A stretch of 47,613 nt of DNA from an uncultured Clostridia bacterium (GTDB taxonomy: Bacteria > Bacillota_I > Bacilli_A > RF39 > UBA660). The DNA lies in assembly GCA_947165365.1 (NCBI GenBank), contig CAMVAF010000008.1, positions 1 to 47,613 of the forward strand, in the 5' to 3' direction. This document shows, in pieces, positions 21,140 through 47,613 of the stretch. The position numbers and the translations under genes were made by a program. The notes under the pieces are model-generated. The model saw nothing but the letters and a program-made list of their open reading frames with translations, was not told the DNA's origin and searched no databases. The first letter of the stretch is position 1; each line of letters opens with the position of its first letter.

Positions 21140-21166
21140 AAGTACTTGAAAATCAAGTGCTTTTTT
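21140..21166 (+). terminator. intrinsic terminator after ClpX-like gene
   Basis: A 10-bp stem (AAGTACTTGA with TCAAGTGCTT, one G-U), three-base loop, followed by T residues; it begins at the base after the TAA stop. Confidence 0.85.
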
Positions 21167-21208
21167 GTTATCATTAAATTATCAAAAATAGAAAGAAGTG
21201 ATAAAGAT

Positions 21209-23962
21209 ATGAGAGAAAGAAAAATAGAAAAATATTTAATTAAAAGTCCAAAACAAATGTTAATTGTAATAGCAGTATTTACCTTAATGATATTTGTTGG
21301 TGGAACAACATATGCTTTTTTTAATTATACAAGAACAGGAGATGCAAATACCATAAAAGTAGGAAGAATAAGTTTTGTAACAAGACAAACTAAAACCATT
21401 AGTTTAACAAATCTATTTCCCATAGATCCAACAAATAGTGAAGAAATGTCAGATGAGACAAAAGTTGGTACATTAGAAATAGAAATAGAAGGAGATACTG
21501 ATTATAATAAAGGTGTAGAATATTTAGTTTCAAGTACCAATACACATATTACAACATCAACAGGTAAATTAGTTCCAATTAGTTTAAGTGTAACACCAAC
21601 TAATTTAGGAACAGAAAATGTTAATTATTTTACGGCAAGAGAAGATAAAAATGCTACAATTTATAAAAAGTTAGTAGGAGATACCATAGTAGGAGATCAA
21701 ATGTTACTAGTTGGATTTATTAAGCCAAACACAACAAGCGGAACAATTGAAGGAGTAAATGGTAAGTTAACAATAAAAGCCTATTTAGATGAAAATAAAA
21801 TATTAATATCTGATACATATGATGGAACAGAATCCGATAATATGGGAACACCAAATGAGGTGGCAAGAGGTAAAACAGTATTAACAACAACAGAATGGAA
21901 TGCATTATCTACTAGTGGAGTATCATTCCAAATAAAGGTAGAAGCGAACGAAGGAATATGGGTAAATAATACACTAGATAATATAATGAGAACCAAAAAT
22001 TTGAATACTACAACCAATCAACCAATAATGGATAATGTTTCTAGTGAATTTGTTTCTGCAAGTACAGGAATTGACTTTGGGGCAGTATCAAGTAGTACAA
22101 ATGGACAGGGCGTTTACATGAGAGCAGGGACAGAAAATGATGCCTATCCAATAGTATATTATCGAGGAGCAGTAGAAGATAACAATGTTGTTTTCAATAA
22201 TAAATGTTGGAAAGCAGTAAGAACTACTGATACAGGTGGCGTTAAATTAATTTATAATGGAGAACAAACAAGTTCATACACAGTTGGGGAACACTTTGAA
22301 CAATCTAAATACATTGATGTTGAAACTGCTAAAAATGCCTTTACGTTTGATTCTAGTGATAATACATGGAATACCACAATAACATCATTAACTAATCCAG
22401 AAATTATTTTTACTTTACCTTCTGGCAGTAATTATGTTTTAAATGTAACAGGGACAACTAGTCAATCAACAGGAGGTACATTCTATATCTATAAAGATGG
22501 ATCAAATATTAATTCACAAGGATTTGGTAGTGGAAATCCAATATCAATATCTTATACACTTGGTACATTGACGTCAGATAATGTAATAAGACTATTTTTT
22601 GGAGTTGGTGGAAATTTAAGTCAAGAAAATCCTATAACTCTTAAGGTAAAAATTGAGCAAAATTCTATTGCTTTATCAAGAGAATCATACAATTTAGGAT
22701 TAGCAGCATTTTCTTTTGATAATATAAATTACAAGTGGACTGCAAATGTTCAAAATAATAGTGCCACTAATGTATCTTTTAAATTACAAAATACAGGGAA
22801 TTATCTTTTAAATTATACTAATCCTGGAGGAGGAACTTTTGTCTTAAAACGAAATAATGATACTATTGGCAATTCATCAACAGGAAGTCAAAAAATAATA
22901 ATAAATAATGTTTTGACGTCAGATATTTTTAGCTTGGAGTATTTGAATTATAATAATCAATCTTATTCAATTGATATTTTTATGTCTGAAATAGGTGATA
23001 GTATGTTAGGTTGTGATAATTCAGGAACAGACACTCATATAAGTTTATCAGGAACAAATACGTTTGTATTTAATACAAATGATAATTCACCAGCATATGC
23101 AGGATATATGTGGGGAAAAGTATACGAATATAGTACATCAAATTGGACAAGTGGAGCAAGATTTGGAAGTAGTTTTACATGGGATGGGACAAATTACAAA
23201 TTAACAGATGCAACAGTAACAACCCCAAATGATACCCATCATTATAGTTGTAATTCTACCGATGCAGAAGCAACATGTACATCAATAAGATATGTTTATT
23301 GGAGTAAGTATTACATAACGATAAGTGAAGGAAAAGGAATTGAAGAAGCAATAAAAGATATGCAAACGAATACAAACCCATCAAATGCTAAAACCCAAAT
23401 TGATGCATGGTATTTAAGTAACATGAATAATGTAACTAATAGATTAGAAGATGCAATATGGTGTAATGATAGAAGTATAGAAAGATATAATGGATGGTCA
23501 GCAACAGGAACAATAAATGGAGCTAGTGGTTATAAAAATTATTCATTATTGTTTGGAGCACATGAAAGAAGTAACCATGCAAGTGGAACAAGCGCAACAA
23601 AAAATCAACCAAGTTTAGCATGTGCTAATAAAAATGATGCGTTTACAGTAAGCAATGGAAATGGAAATCAAAAATTAACATACCCAGTAGCATTATTAAC
23701 AGAAGATGAAATAGTATTAGCAGGAGGAGTAGGATCATCAAATAGTAGCTATTATTTAACAACAGGAAATTCGTACTGGTCTTTGTCGCCTTGCTTATAC
23801 AACGGCGTTATTGACACCGAGTTCAACGTGGGCTCCGGTGGTAGCTTGGACAACGACACTGTGTTCAATACCTTAGGTCTTCGACCTGCCATCTCCCTTA
23901 AACCTGGAATGCCTGTAATCTCAGGTACAGGTACTGTAACAGACCCTTATGTCATAGAATAA
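21209..23962 (+). CDS. large anchored surface protein with duplicated beta domain and variable-looking C-terminus
   Basis: 917 residues. A basic head (MRERKIEKYLIKSPKQ), one hydrophobic helix (about 17-38) and FFNYTRTGDANTIKVG resemble the camelysin/TasA-type export region of gut Bacillota surface proteins. Two related units lie at about 374-482 and 493-595 (both with GTF..YK/KR..., I.I...LTSD, and a closing I.I/E pattern), inserted in a CWKAVRTTDTGGVKLIYNG...GYMWGKVYEY domain. The C-terminus (YWSLSPC..., GLRPAISL) belongs to a C-type-lectin-like/FGE-type domain. The start at 21209 is chosen over 21146, which lies in the terminator. The last 190 bases have a sharply different base composition (see findings). 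It is preceded and followed by terminators, so it is monocistronic. Confidence 0.8.
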   Translation: MRERKIEKYLIKSPKQMLIVIAVFTLMIFVGGTTYAFFNYTRTGDANTIKVGRISFVTRQTKTISLTNLFPIDPTNSEEMSDETKVGTLEIEIEGDTDYNKGVEYLVSSTNTHITTSTGKLVPISLSVTPTNLGTENVNYFTAREDKNATIYKKLVGDTIVGDQMLLVGFIKPNTTSGTIEGVNGKLTIKAYLDENKILISDTYDGTESDNMGTPNEVARGKTVLTTTEWNALSTSGVSFQIKVEANEGIWVNNTLDNIMRTKNLNTTTNQPIMDNVSSEFVSASTGIDFGAVSSSTNGQGVYMRAGTENDAYPIVYYRGAVEDNNVVFNNKCWKAVRTTDTGGVKLIYNGEQTSSYTVGEHFEQSKYIDVETAKNAFTFDSSDNTWNTTITSLTNPEIIFTLPSGSNYVLNVTGTTSQSTGGTFYIYKDGSNINSQGFGSGNPISISYTLGTLTSDNVIRLFFGVGGNLSQENPITLKVKIEQNSIALSRESYNLGLAAFSFDNINYKWTANVQNNSATNVSFKLQNTGNYLLNYTNPGGGTFVLKRNNDTIGNSSTGSQKIIINNVLTSDIFSLEYLNYNNQSYSIDIFMSEIGDSMLGCDNSGTDTHISLSGTNTFVFNTNDNSPAYAGYMWGKVYEYSTSNWTSGARFGSSFTWDGTNYKLTDATVTTPNDTHHYSCNSTDAEATCTSIRYVYWSKYYITISEGKGIEEAIKDMQTNTNPSNAKTQIDAWYLSNMNNVTNRLEDAIWCNDRSIERYNGWSATGTINGASGYKNYSLLFGAHERSNHASGTSATKNQPSLACANKNDAFTVSNGNGNQKLTYPVALLTEDEIVLAGGVGSSNSSYYLTTGNSYWSLSPCLYNGVIDTEFNVGSGGSLDNDTVFNTLGLRPAISLKPGMPVISGTGTVTDPYVIE
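23771..23962 (+). other. GC-rich 3' segment with C-ending codons in the surface-protein gene
   Basis: By hand count 54 of the 108 bases from 23771 to 23878 are G or C, against roughly a quarter to a third around it. In the 25 codons 23798-23872, 15 end in C (AAC, GAC, TTC, GGC, ACC, TCC, AGC, TAC), a pattern almost absent upstream, where AAT/GAT dominate. Such runs of NNC codons are what adenine-directed mutation of AAC codons would give. The segment ends in a CT-rich stretch (23886-23920). Transfer from another paralogue is an alternative. Confidence 0.6.
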
Positions 23963-23975
23963 AATAATCTTATAT

Positions 23976-24026
23976 AATATAGTGTATAAATTCTAAATAA
24001 TAGAATTACTACACTATATTTTTTAA
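23976..24026 (+). terminator. nested-hairpin terminator after surface-protein gene
   Basis: AATATAGTGTA (23976-23986) and TACACTATATT (24010-24020) form a perfect 11-bp stem around an inner ATTCTA/TAGAAT hairpin, followed by TTTTTT. Confidence 0.85.
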
Positions 24027-40584: not shown

Positions 40585-41661
40585 AAGTGCAACACTTGTA
40601 AATAAAATTTAAAAAAAGTCCATTTAGGACCTCGTGTTATATTGTAATTGACTAAAAAAACATAGAACGGAGGTTTTACTAAATGAACTATAATCATATT
40701 ACCATAAATGAAAGGACTTGTATATATCAATTCAAGCAAATGGGTTTATCCGCAAGAAAAATAGCTGAAGTTTTAAATAGGTCACCTAGCACAATTTCAA
40801 GAGAATTAAAAAGAAATTTCTGTGGATATAGATACAAATATTTGCCACATAAAGCTCAGGAAAAGTATGAAGCAAGAAGAATTAATTGCCATCGAAAAGA
40901 AATAATAACTGATGAAATAAAAGAATATATTGAATCTAAGATATTTATACATTGGTCTCCAGATCAAATTATAAATAGAAAAGAAAAAGCTAAGCCTGAA
41001 TTACCATCCGTTTCTACAATATATAGATGGATTAATCTAGGTTATATAATTAAAGGTGATAAAAAGAAATTAAGAAGGCAAGGTAAATTTAAGAGACCCG
41101 CTGAAACAAGAGGACGTTTCAATATTGGTAAAACTATCAAGAAAAGACCTAAAGAAGTATATAACAGAAATAATTTTGGCCATTGGGAAGCAGACACGGT
41201 AGTATCAGGTAAATTAGATAATAGAACACTAAAAAGTAAATATTGCTTTGTATCATTAGCAGAAAGAAAAACACGACTTTATTTGGTAAAATGGATACCT
41301 GATAGAACAGAAGAGACTGTAACAAAAGCAATAATAGAGTTATTAAAGAATTTTCCAAAAGAAGCAGTTAAAACAATTACATGTGACAGAGGGAAAGAAT
41401 TTGCTGGTTGGAAGAAAATAGAAGAAGCGCTACAAACCAGCATGTACTTTGCTGATCCTTATTGTGCATGGCAAAAAGGAACAAATGAAAACTCTAACGG
41501 ATTATTTAGAGAATTATATCCTAAATCTATGGATTTATCTAAAACAACAGAAAAAGAAGTACAAAAAAATCTTGAACTTCTTAATAATAGACCAAGGAAA
41601 TGTATCGATTACAAAACTCCAAACGAGTATTTTAATGAATGTTTATTAAAATGTTGCACTT
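40585..41661 (+). mobile_element. IS30-family insertion sequence
   Basis: Imperfect terminal inverted repeats with AAGTGCAACA at the left end (40585-40594) and its complement TGTTGCACTT at the right end (41652-41661), with further partial match inward, enclose a single transposase gene. The transposase stop codon TGA begins with the last T of the right repeat. No convincing target duplication is visible (left flank ATT, right flank GAA). The element lies between priA and the adhesin gene. Confidence 0.85.
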
Positions 41662-41663
41662 GA
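40683..41663 (+). CDS. IS30-family transposase
   Basis: 326 residues, of usual length and with intact motifs. The N-terminus has helix-turn-helix repeats (ARKIAEVLNRSPSTISRELKRN), and the DDE domain shows the family hallmark GHWEADTVVSG (first Asp), TITCDRGKEFAG (second Asp) and GTNENSNGLFRELYP (Glu). GGAGG lies 7-12 bases before the ATG. A small inverted repeat AGTCC/GGACC in the leader (about 40618-40632) may limit read-through from outside. The gene looks functional. Confidence 0.93.
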   Translation: MNYNHITINERTCIYQFKQMGLSARKIAEVLNRSPSTISRELKRNFCGYRYKYLPHKAQEKYEARRINCHRKEIITDEIKEYIESKIFIHWSPDQIINRKEKAKPELPSVSTIYRWINLGYIIKGDKKKLRRQGKFKRPAETRGRFNIGKTIKKRPKEVYNRNNFGHWEADTVVSGKLDNRTLKSKYCFVSLAERKTRLYLVKWIPDRTEETVTKAIIELLKNFPKEAVKTITCDRGKEFAGWKKIEEALQTSMYFADPYCAWQKGTNENSNGLFRELYPKSMDLSKTTEKEVQKNLELLNNRPRKCIDYKTPNEYFNECLLKCCT

Positions 41664-44900: not shown

Positions 44901-47613
44901 ATCTCAGCTGGTATTATAACAGTTCATGATGGCGAAGTTGTTATCAAACTTCCTGGACATGATTATTCATTTTCTGAAAGTGGAGAAAATGCATATCGTT
45001 GGGAAATTGATACATCTATTATTCGACCAATGTTAATCAATAATGAACTATCAATATTGATTCGTGAAAAGGAATTAGCAACAGGTGAAACATGCACAAC
45101 TGGTCAATATGAAATTGATGGCGCATGTTATAGCGTTGGAGTTGTTGAAAATGGAAAAGTATCTCTTACAGCAACTAATGATAGAAAAAGTAATTTAAAT
45201 ATTATTAAAGCAGTTGATGGCGAAAGTGCAAATGAAGATGATGAATTTGAATTTACTATAGTTGTCAATGATAAACAAATTGAAGGTACTGATGAAGATT
45301 TATGGTTCTCAGTTAATAAAGATGGATTTATAGATGTTGATAGTAGAATTACAGGTAATGCTTGGACAAAATATGTAAATTCAAGAGGAGAAATTTATTA
45401 TCACGCTCCAAATAAAACAGTATTAAATATTAAATTAAAAGCTGGAGAAAATATTCGTTTTACAAACCTTTCTTCTGAAACTGATTTTACTATTACAGAA
45501 TCTGATCCTAGTGGAAAAAATTATGAATTTATAGGTGCTGATTATGAATCAGTATATGGTAGTGCAACTACATCAACTAATGAAACTATTGATGTAAATA
45601 GTAGTACTAGAACAGTAGAAGGATTAGTAAGTAATACTAATACAACCTATACTGTAACAGTTAACAATAAATATGAACTTATTAATGTTAATGTAATTAA
45701 AGTATGGGATGATGCTAATAATAAGGATAATTCTCGTCCAACTATTACTTTTAACTTAACTGACAAAGATGGTAATAATATATTAGATGATAATAACGAA
45801 CCATATACATTAACACTAAATAGCTCAAGTGTAGATAGTACAGATGCAAATAAATGGATAGGTTCATTTACAGGTTTAAAAAGATTTGATGAAAATGGAA
45901 ATGAAATCGAATATTATGTTAAAGAAGTAGAGGTTGATGGATATGTTTCATCAACACCAGTAAGAGTTCAAAAAGATGGAGTTGTTAATGTAACAATTAC
46001 CAATAAAAAAGTAATTGATATAACAGTAACAAAGGTATGGGATGATCATAATGATTATGATAGTATTAGACCTATCACAATTGATGTAATACTTACTGGA
46101 ACAGAAACATCAAGAAAGACATTATCAGAAGAAAATTCTTGGACGTATACATGGAATAATTTGCCAAAGTATGATTCAAATGGACAAGAAATAAATTATA
46201 GTATATCTGAAGTTTATACTGATGTAATTACAGCTAGCGTTGATAGTGCAGTAACTTATGCTGCTCAAGTATTAGGAAATGCCGTTGAAGGATTTACCGT
46301 AAAAAATACCCACACACCATTAACGGAAAGAACTGTTAAGAAAGTATGGAATGATGCAAATAATCAAGACGGTAAGAGACCTACAAGTTTAGTAGTAACA
46401 TTAAGTGATGGACAATCAGTAACACTTAATAAAAAAAATGAATGGACAGCAACTATTACAGGTTTACCAGTATTTAATGGTAATCAAAAAATCGTATATA
46501 CTTGGAGTGAAGCAAGTCTTCCAGAAGGATACGAATTAACAGACACAAGTGTTAACGGATTAATTACAACTTTAACAAATAGTTATGAAACAGAAGAAAC
46601 AAAAGTAACTGTAACTAAGATATGGTCAGATTCAAACGACCAAGATGGTAAGAGAAAAGATGTAAACGCAACTGTACAATTATATAAGACAGTTGGTGAA
46701 ACAAAGACCGCTGTAGGAGACTCAGTAAATGTAGGAACTGCAGATAACTGGTCAAATACATGGGAAAATCTACCAGTATATGAAGGTGGCGTAAAGATAG
46801 TTTACTCAGTAGAAGAAACATTATCAGAAAACACTGAATATACAAAATCAGGTGATACTGTTACTTTAACTGCAACTAAAGATAACTCAGGTACAATTGA
46901 AATTACTAATAGTTACACTACAGAAGAAACAAAAGTAACTGTAACTAAGGTATGGAATGATACAAACGATCAAGATGGTAAGAGAAAAGATGTAAACGCA
47001 ACTGTACAATTATATAAGACAGTTGGTGAAACAAAGACCGCTGTAGGAGACTCAGTAAATGTAGGAACTGCAGATAACTGGTCAAATACATGGGAAAATC
47101 TACCAGTATATGAAGGTGGCGTAAAGATAGTTTACTCAGTAGAAGAAACATTATCAGAAAACACTGAATATACAAAATCAGGAGATACTGTTACTTTAAC
47201 TGCAACTAAAGATAATAGTGGAACAATAGAAATTACTAATAGTTACACTACAGAAGAAACAAAAGTAACTGTAACTAAGATATGGTCAGATTCAAACGAT
47301 CAAGATGGTAAGAGAAAAGATGTAAACGCAACTGTACAATTATATAAGACAGTTGGTGAAACAAAGACCGCTGTAGGAGACTCAGTAAATGTAGGAACTG
47401 CAGATAACTGGTCAAATACATGGGAAAATCTACCAGTATATGAAGGTGGCGTAAAGATAGTTTACTCAGTAGAAGAAACATTATCAGAAAACACTGAATA
47501 TACTAAGTCAGGAGATACAGTAACACTTACTGCAACAAAAGACAACTCAGGTACAATAGAAATTACTAATAGTTACACTACAGAAGAAACAAAAGTAACT
47601 GTAACTAAGGTAT
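41964..47613 (+). CDS. giant VWA/Cna-B surface adhesin (3' end outside window)
   Basis: At least 1,883 residues; the frame is open to the right edge. Signal peptide MNKKILFVILMAICFCQFNVKA; then an acidic Asn/Ser/Glu-rich stalk (about 25-215); a beta-rich domain with YQVIFTYDTFEYSILGGKSI; a von Willebrand A domain with MIDAS motif DTSGS at 384-388 running to about 700; more beta domains; then Cna-B-type domains each starting V(T)K(I/V)W(D/N/S)D near residues 1244, 1351, 1456 and 1543 and then three near-identical copies. Such K..E/D..N domains form isopeptide bonds. GGAGG is 5 bases before the ATG. LPXTG is not seen, as the end is missing. It probably binds host or mucus. Confidence 0.9.
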   Translation, partial: MNKKILFVILMAICFCQFNVKAMEENIVNGTETVQENDTVDKENEEIVLNKPGSNSGTMNSPNDLGFNAKNIDSESNIEDEEKETTTSSSNEKTSNLEEDSSENTSTENKENTDVTPNNIEETTKEIDNNNTKIIDNGSNENTSDIGNSNNEINDNSASENTSDVGNSDNEIIDNKDGEISSETPKDLPETTDNNNDVSSESDSGETIDENDENIIGNSLYQVIFTYDTFEYSILGGKSILASKLTNELGINISFDDIYEILTSNNEILEITKQENDYLIKSIKSFDTEEKLIIHTKNGEEYIIKVTDPAGDVPDHSKTLTPNPTYDEDGNIIYLTDENGNYVLDEDGNKIIKGDGTYKLSLTVTGEADVKNNNTKANVVVILDTSGSMNYIADSTGGAHSAGNNSIGKYGSVNNQYRRLYYNYDGKYYPEGDGPQDTQRHNNVYYSYQYYNNGTVDWESYTGTRYNFANDKTRLEVAKESINELIDTLLAQNNQVSDLVEISFVIFNKYGEYVSPNSATGNGWTSGTNGEALKNLVNQELALDGTNWDDGLYKGRLLANAKTDNDNTYIVFFSDGEPTYRNSEVGSATSHTHGSSVHGNGGSDNAGYNRNAAYYEAKEIYNTNTNTKDVKFYSIFAYGSNDGKTYMKNLTSYGNYGNANHANSVENEKLYFQADNTTAIRNAFKEIASSIANATGIGETSITDGTTSEVKISSTDSEGLLDVDDESFEYYLSWNVNKNTNDNNYSFSMYNGGSVKNYTVSESNGNITITDDSNNVSTYKGSIETNNNVNTLKILWGSKKETIATQPFYMAAPQATFDGKKVDWNLTSLNTLLNGVTYEVTFDVWPSQATYDLIADLKNGTVTYDSLNPDVKKYLKKTNDGDDDKVATYTLLTNTIGKANLTFTDARPNGISGTVGYDQPEPVGTSVSEMLAITKIWNDAFNGTENEENVIPYIQRDDNSEWYQVTLTKDNNIWTGSAYISAGIITVHDGEVVIKLPGHDYSFSESGENAYRWEIDTSIIRPMLINNELSILIREKELATGETCTTGQYEIDGACYSVGVVENGKVSLTATNDRKSNLNIIKAVDGESANEDDEFEFTIVVNDKQIEGTDEDLWFSVNKDGFIDVDSRITGNAWTKYVNSRGEIYYHAPNKTVLNIKLKAGENIRFTNLSSETDFTITESDPSGKNYEFIGADYESVYGSATTSTNETIDVNSSTRTVEGLVSNTNTTYTVTVNNKYELINVNVIKVWDDANNKDNSRPTITFNLTDKDGNNILDDNNEPYTLTLNSSSVDSTDANKWIGSFTGLKRFDENGNEIEYYVKEVEVDGYVSSTPVRVQKDGVVNVTITNKKVIDITVTKVWDDHNDYDSIRPITIDVILTGTETSRKTLSEENSWTYTWNNLPKYDSNGQEINYSISEVYTDVITASVDSAVTYAAQVLGNAVEGFTVKNTHTPLTERTVKKVWNDANNQDGKRPTSLVVTLSDGQSVTLNKKNEWTATITGLPVFNGNQKIVYTWSEASLPEGYELTDTSVNGLITTLTNSYETEETKVTVTKIWSDSNDQDGKRKDVNATVQLYKTVGETKTAVGDSVNVGTADNWSNTWENLPVYEGGVKIVYSVEETLSENTEYTKSGDTVTLTATKDNSGTIEITNSYTTEETKVTVTKVWNDTNDQDGKRKDVNATVQLYKTVGETKTAVGDSVNVGTADNWSNTWENLPVYEGGVKIVYSVEETLSENTEYTKSGDTVTLTATKDNSGTIEITNSYTTEETKVTVTKIWSDSNDQDGKRKDVNATVQLYKTVGETKTAVGDSVNVGTADNWSNTWENLPVYEGGVKIVYSVEETLSENTEYTKSGDTVTLTATKDNSGTIEITNSYTTEETKVTVTKV
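46591..47613 (+). repeat. 330-bp near-identical tandem repeats (Cna-B units)
   Basis: Units begin at 46591, 46921, 47251 and 47581 (partial), each 330 bp = 110 codons, so the reading frame is kept. The copies differ at few positions: TCAGAT vs AATGAT after ATATGG/GTATGG, the AAATCAGG(T/A) region, and silent changes near the end. The first unit starts after a different, older Cna-B domain. Such identity points to recent duplication or ongoing gene conversion, and the copy number will vary between strains and assemblies. Confidence 0.95.

Follow-up and report, generated by a model that had tools for sequence, protein, structure and literature searches.

A GC-rich segment at the 3′ end of a surface-type protein gene from an uncultured gut Bacilli genome is very probably a variable repeat written by a diversity-generating retroelement

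The 3′ end of one gene in the window analysed here (the whole stretch of 47,613 nucleotides, on contig C8 of a draft genome of 1.41 Mb in 51 contigs, 82% complete) bears a GC-rich segment that is very probably the variable repeat (VR) of a diversity-generating retroelement (DGR) target gene. A first-pass annotation of this DNA had read the NNC codons of the segment as the products of adenine mutation in a template with AAC codons, and this reading is borne out by sequence comparison, in which the segment shows position-for-position homology to the VRs of intact DGR cassettes in related genomes and differs preferentially at the adenines of their templates. In the mechanism envisaged, an AAC-codon-rich non-coding template RNA would be reverse-transcribed by the DGR reverse transcriptase (RT), with misincorporation at template adenines, and the mutated cDNA would replace the homologous 3′ end of the target gene. 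The product would be a secreted or surface protein whose DUF6273/C-type-lectin-like domain bears a randomised patch, probably its binding surface, and the GC-rich, NNC character of the VR would be inherited from the template. We infer past retrohoming at this locus, as well as surface display of the protein and ligand binding by its variable domain.

The target gene is an open reading frame for 938 amino acids taken from the ORF list (21146..23962, forward strand, with a start perhaps at ATG 21209), whose product has a hydrophobic, signal-peptide or anchor-like N-terminus and is, by this sequence feature, likely to be a secreted or surface protein. The N-terminal part of the protein has a close paralogue in the same genome, on contig C10 (245 of 282 amino acids identical). 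The C-terminal domain (23000..23959, forward strand) is homologous by alignment to DGR target domains and is DUF6273-like, of the C-type lectin type; within it lies the VR (23777..23899, forward strand), in frame with the reading frame 21146-23962, at the 3′ end of the gene and inside the domain that the DGRs of relatives target (25 homologous target sequences). At its 3′ end (23885..23899, same strand), where comparison of VR and template 3′ ends puts the position of the initiation of mutagenic homing (IMH) element, the VR reads CCTGCCATCTCCCTT. Downstream of the stop codon, an AT-rich hairpin followed by a T-run (23976..24021, forward strand), recognised from sequence and fold, is probably a transcription terminator.

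The G+C content reaches 47% over 23771-23962 and 51% over 23777-23899, compared with 30% for the target gene upstream of the abnormal block, 24% for the 25 other open reading frames of the window and near 24% for the genome; windows of 123 bp with a G+C content of at least 47% form a single cluster in the 47.6 kb, at 23755-23958. Between 23798 and 23872, C occupies the third position in 15 of the 25 codons, versus 6.1% of the 875 upstream codons (binomial p = 1e-12), and C-ending codons make up 5.4% of 8581 elsewhere. The codon count is exactly that of the first-pass annotation, which had also described the remainder of the gene as AT-rich, correctly, and had placed a jump to about 50% G+C at 23771; the jump is confirmed by the measured values, but the block does not run to the stop codon. 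The abnormal stretch spans approximately 23777-23899, and the VR stops about 60 nt 5′ of the stop, leaving the final 60 nt of the gene outside it. Elsewhere in the window, three near-identical 330-bp Cna_B-domain repeats (95% matches; 46590-47613) are part of a large surface protein whose reading frame continues beyond the end of the window, and an IS30-like transposase gene (40683-41663) lies just upstream.

Genes whose C-terminal domain is homologous are found, in congeners as well as in other gut Bacilli, next to a non-coding, AAC-rich template, usually accompanied by a DGR-type RT and a gene for an Avd-like protein. In the congener G004 (locus L052), downstream of the end of the VR-bearing gene come, in order, an AAC-rich, non-coding template repeat (TR), a 138-residue Avd-like reading frame and a 490-residue RT, and the same order of VR, non-coding TR, Avd-like reading frame and RT is found in the congener G003 (L053) and in the relative G022 (L049); G003 (RUG14705) and G004 (RUG12925) are uncultured Erysipelotrichaceae MAGs. 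The RTs of the relatives carry IGAxTSQ and YMDD motifs, which we take, from established knowledge of DGR RTs, to be of the DGR type. Their small reading frame gives weak matches to bAvd and DivGenRetAVD that fall short of the curated cut-offs, and also matches the PHROG for DGR Avd. In the congener RTs (L052:1159-2631, L053:3790-5265), a MutS_I domain that scores above the Pfam cut-off is fused at the C-terminus, and a similar MutS_I-like domain in G023 (L054:3000-3401), below the cut-off, forms a separate reading frame just 5′ of the Avd-like gene; the MSL domain (PF01624) is known as an accessory of DGRs (PMC10053308). The RT of G036 (L105) was rejected as a DGR RT: it carries RYADD and is not of the DGR type, so that this genome is uninformative on DGR activity. 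Scanning GTDB genomes with an RT alignment gave 80 loci, and of these plus L049 and L052, 36 contain a cis VR/TR pair, mostly with a spacing of 140-370 nt. Summed over these loci, with one role-reversed row (L188) excluded, 615 of 1196 template adenines and 39 of 2852 other template bases are changed, and the cis pairs of G004, G003 and G022 differ at 20/35, 24/40 and 21/42 adenines, respectively, and at one other base each.

Of all the loci compared, the L180 template gives the best non-self match to the window VR, with an adenine-freeing score of 37.9 (reversed control at most 16.1), a score that favours adenine differences by design. Since the score was thus built to favour the DGR hypothesis, a plain-alignment test was added, in which 24 of 42 adenines versus 22 of 87 other bases differ between the window VR and this template (p = 5e-4), the remaining non-adenine differences, which count against the DGR reading, arising because the L180 template belongs to another species. 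With the roles of VR and template swapped, the same pair gives p = 0.79. Against the templates of L170, G004 and G022, the p values are 0.003, 0.008 and 0.0015, respectively, and across the genus 23 of the 26 VRs that have no cis template are adenine-biased at p < 0.05 relative to their best template, with 0 of 26 after swapping. Comparison with the paralogue in G003 reveals a collapse of amino acid conservation that is confined to the VR: identity is 85% (196/230) in the domain upstream, 41% (16/39) in the VR and 75% in the short tail. The nucleotide differences within the VR comprise 4 synonymous ones, in conserved codons, and 48 nonsynonymous ones, in changed codons.

The inferred template of the window VR would read about GAGTTCAACGTGAACTCCRGTGGTAACTTGAACAACAACA, and a 45-base pattern derived from it matches 2 of 386 family genomes (reversed control 0), at the G022 template and at an AAC-rich non-coding site near rplK in G387. 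At L250 (G387:C68, minus strand, near 1500), an AAC-rich non-coding template-like sequence is present near rplK/rplA, apparently in two copies, with no RT in the 3 kb covered. The end of the window VR, CCTGCCATCTCCCTT, has diverged from the genus-common GYCGTTTCACTT form, the IMH place reading CATCTCCCTT versus the usual CGTTTCACTT; L195, which has an intact cassette, shows variants such as CATTTCCCTC, and the VRs on contigs C10 (first) and C32 of the same genome retain an intact GTTTCACTT end. Given its diverged IMH-like end, the window VR may no longer be served.

The C-terminal domain aligns with 25 target-domain sequences from loci with a DGR-type RT at 30-77% identity. The DUF6273 profile (PF19789) matches 15 of the 26 aligned homologues and, at E 1, does not match the window protein itself. 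The predicted structure of the domain, with a mean pLDDT of 74 overall and of about 68 within the VR, has weak structural matches, the best being to residues 49-303 of 9qa6, the T. ramosa IgA peptidase, with a Z of 5.2, which is below the safe level. These residues form the N-terminal domain of the peptidase, which is DUF6273 (PMC12402451), and the match of the predicted fold would agree with DUF6273 without proving it. A Foldseek search with the domain model gave no match at E 0.001, and canonical FGE chains were not among its matches, from which no inference is drawn; no solved structure matched the sequence profile of the domain, and no relative of the domain was found in the viral contigs and phage collection searched. 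The fold is most likely that of a DUF6273 C-type-lectin domain, and of the C-type-lectin-like/FGE-type fold proposed at first reading the C-type-lectin-like part would hold, in its DUF6273 form, while the domain does not belong to the FGE Pfam family. DUF6273 is a known DGR target domain, C-type-lectin-like with a DGR-variable hairpin on its surface (PMC10743442), and in Faecalibacterium prophages the variable regions sit in DUF6273 (PMC11792537).

No RT match was obtained at the RVT_1 threshold in the window, as the first-pass annotation had noted, or in the whole assembly (82% complete). With the G004 RT as query, one fragment was found on contig C46 (38% identity over residues 14-129); this fragment (L059, G000:C46, 2771-3145) has an internal stop, lacks the catalytic part and comes 0.7 kb after a further GC-rich VR gene. 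Duplicated DUF1016/YhcG nuclease genes follow it. A template within the genome itself was rejected as a candidate: a search of the 82%-complete assembly with the predicted template DNA returned, above noise, the VR alone, and the TR-flank motif of three cassettes was not found there. The genome-wide check proposed at the outset, for a template copy and an RT, has thus yielded no template and only a broken RT in this assembly, and the missing TR and intact RT count against the DGR reading. The genome has a VR without an assembled cassette, the template and RT being either not assembled or lost, as a completeness of 82% makes a missing contig and a true loss both possible. Two further C-termini in this genome (L056 and L057; G000:C12 and C10b) are homologous and have AT-rich codons, and are perhaps old VRs that have drifted back to the genome base composition.

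Two sub-cases share the confidence placed in the DGR reading. The chance is close to even that the DGR is active and serves several remote targets in trans, its RT and template lying in the 18% of the genome that is unassembled. In support of this, a single assembled cassette coexists with many remote VRs in both G003 and G004, VR loci often lie near contig ends, and two remote VRs of G004 (L109 and L110, on contigs C12 and C7) fit the cis template of their own genome, with 41-46% of the adenines and 9-14% of the other bases differing, so that action on trans targets is likely in the genus; a second cassette, however, has left no trace, and the GC-rich VRs of the genome imply more than one template. 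Somewhat short of even is the chance that the DGR which wrote the VR has since been lost by the lineage, leaving an orphan whose sequence is frozen and drifting. The broken RT remnant beside another GC-rich VR gene on C46, the failure to find the TR and its flank motif, the diverged IMH-like end and the apparent amelioration of the C12 and C10b homologues to AT-rich codons all lean towards such a relic, and Treponema denticola strains without an RT keep leftovers of this kind (PMC4891356). However, the MAG is 82% complete, the VRs on C10 (first) and C32 have intact GTTTCACTT ends, and the base composition of the window VR is still GC-rich rather than drifted to that of the genome, which leans towards recent writing.

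The main rival named in the first-pass annotation, import of a cassette from a paralogue, here considered as gene conversion or lateral transfer of a GC-rich block with no retroelement involved, is very improbable. Although a sharp-edged GC-rich block within an AT-rich gene and the large number of paralogues would suit such an import, a near-identical block was not found in any paralogue of the assembly, which speaks against gene conversion, and import predicts neither an adenine bias nor an asymmetry on swapping the roles of VR and template.

Copies of the C-terminal domain are found at 6 places in the window genome, 16 in G004, 25 in G003 and 26 in G036, counts that are an upper bound on DGR targets, as some homologous domains are not targets. 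Many of the VR loci of G004 and G036 (L106-L119, L146-L165) are located about 1 kb or less from the end of a contig, as though assemblies tended to break at VRs. The remaining VRs of G003 and G004 are built on different backbones, and the G003 template was rejected as the source of the remote VRs of G003, there being no gapless match. Several VRs per DGR are known (PMC6642488), and for T. denticola and Stenotrophomonas as many as eight similar targets are cited (PMC10743442). It is conceivable, if doubtful, that a gut Bacilli genome holds up to about two dozen (an upper bound) dispersed lectin-like VR genes on several template backbones, successive templates or cassettes having been gained and lost and their written products kept as a library of frozen binders that includes the window gene. 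The present analysis indicates that base composition alone can suffice to recognise a surface protein written by a DGR when enzyme and template are not nearby, and it draws attention to uncultured gut Bacilli whose dispersed DGR-type targets are unusually numerous; the timing of gain and loss of such systems could be worked out from leftover variable genes if these record past templates.

Compared with the congener cassettes of G003 and G004, which comprise a TR, an Avd-like reading frame and an RT with a C-terminal MutS_I (MSL-type) domain, the window has the target domain family and codon style in common, whereas its genome has an RT relic only. The DUF6273 targets of known DGRs, the tentaclins and those of Faecalibacterium prophage (PMC10743442, PMC11792537), likewise have an adenine-directed variable region in a DUF6273-like domain; these are receptor-binding proteins of phages or prophages with adjacent RT and TR, whereas the window gene is chromosomal and of surface type, with no cassette nearby and no phage-collection match. 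Treponema denticola (PMC4891356) resembles the present case in its several dispersed targets per genome and in targets that outlast RT and TR. Its targets are spirochaete proteins, most with lipoprotein signals, in contrast to the Bacilli MAGs described here, which have several template backbones per genome, but RT-less leftover targets are already known from this organism, which provides a precedent for targets being kept after loss of RT and TR (PMC4891356).
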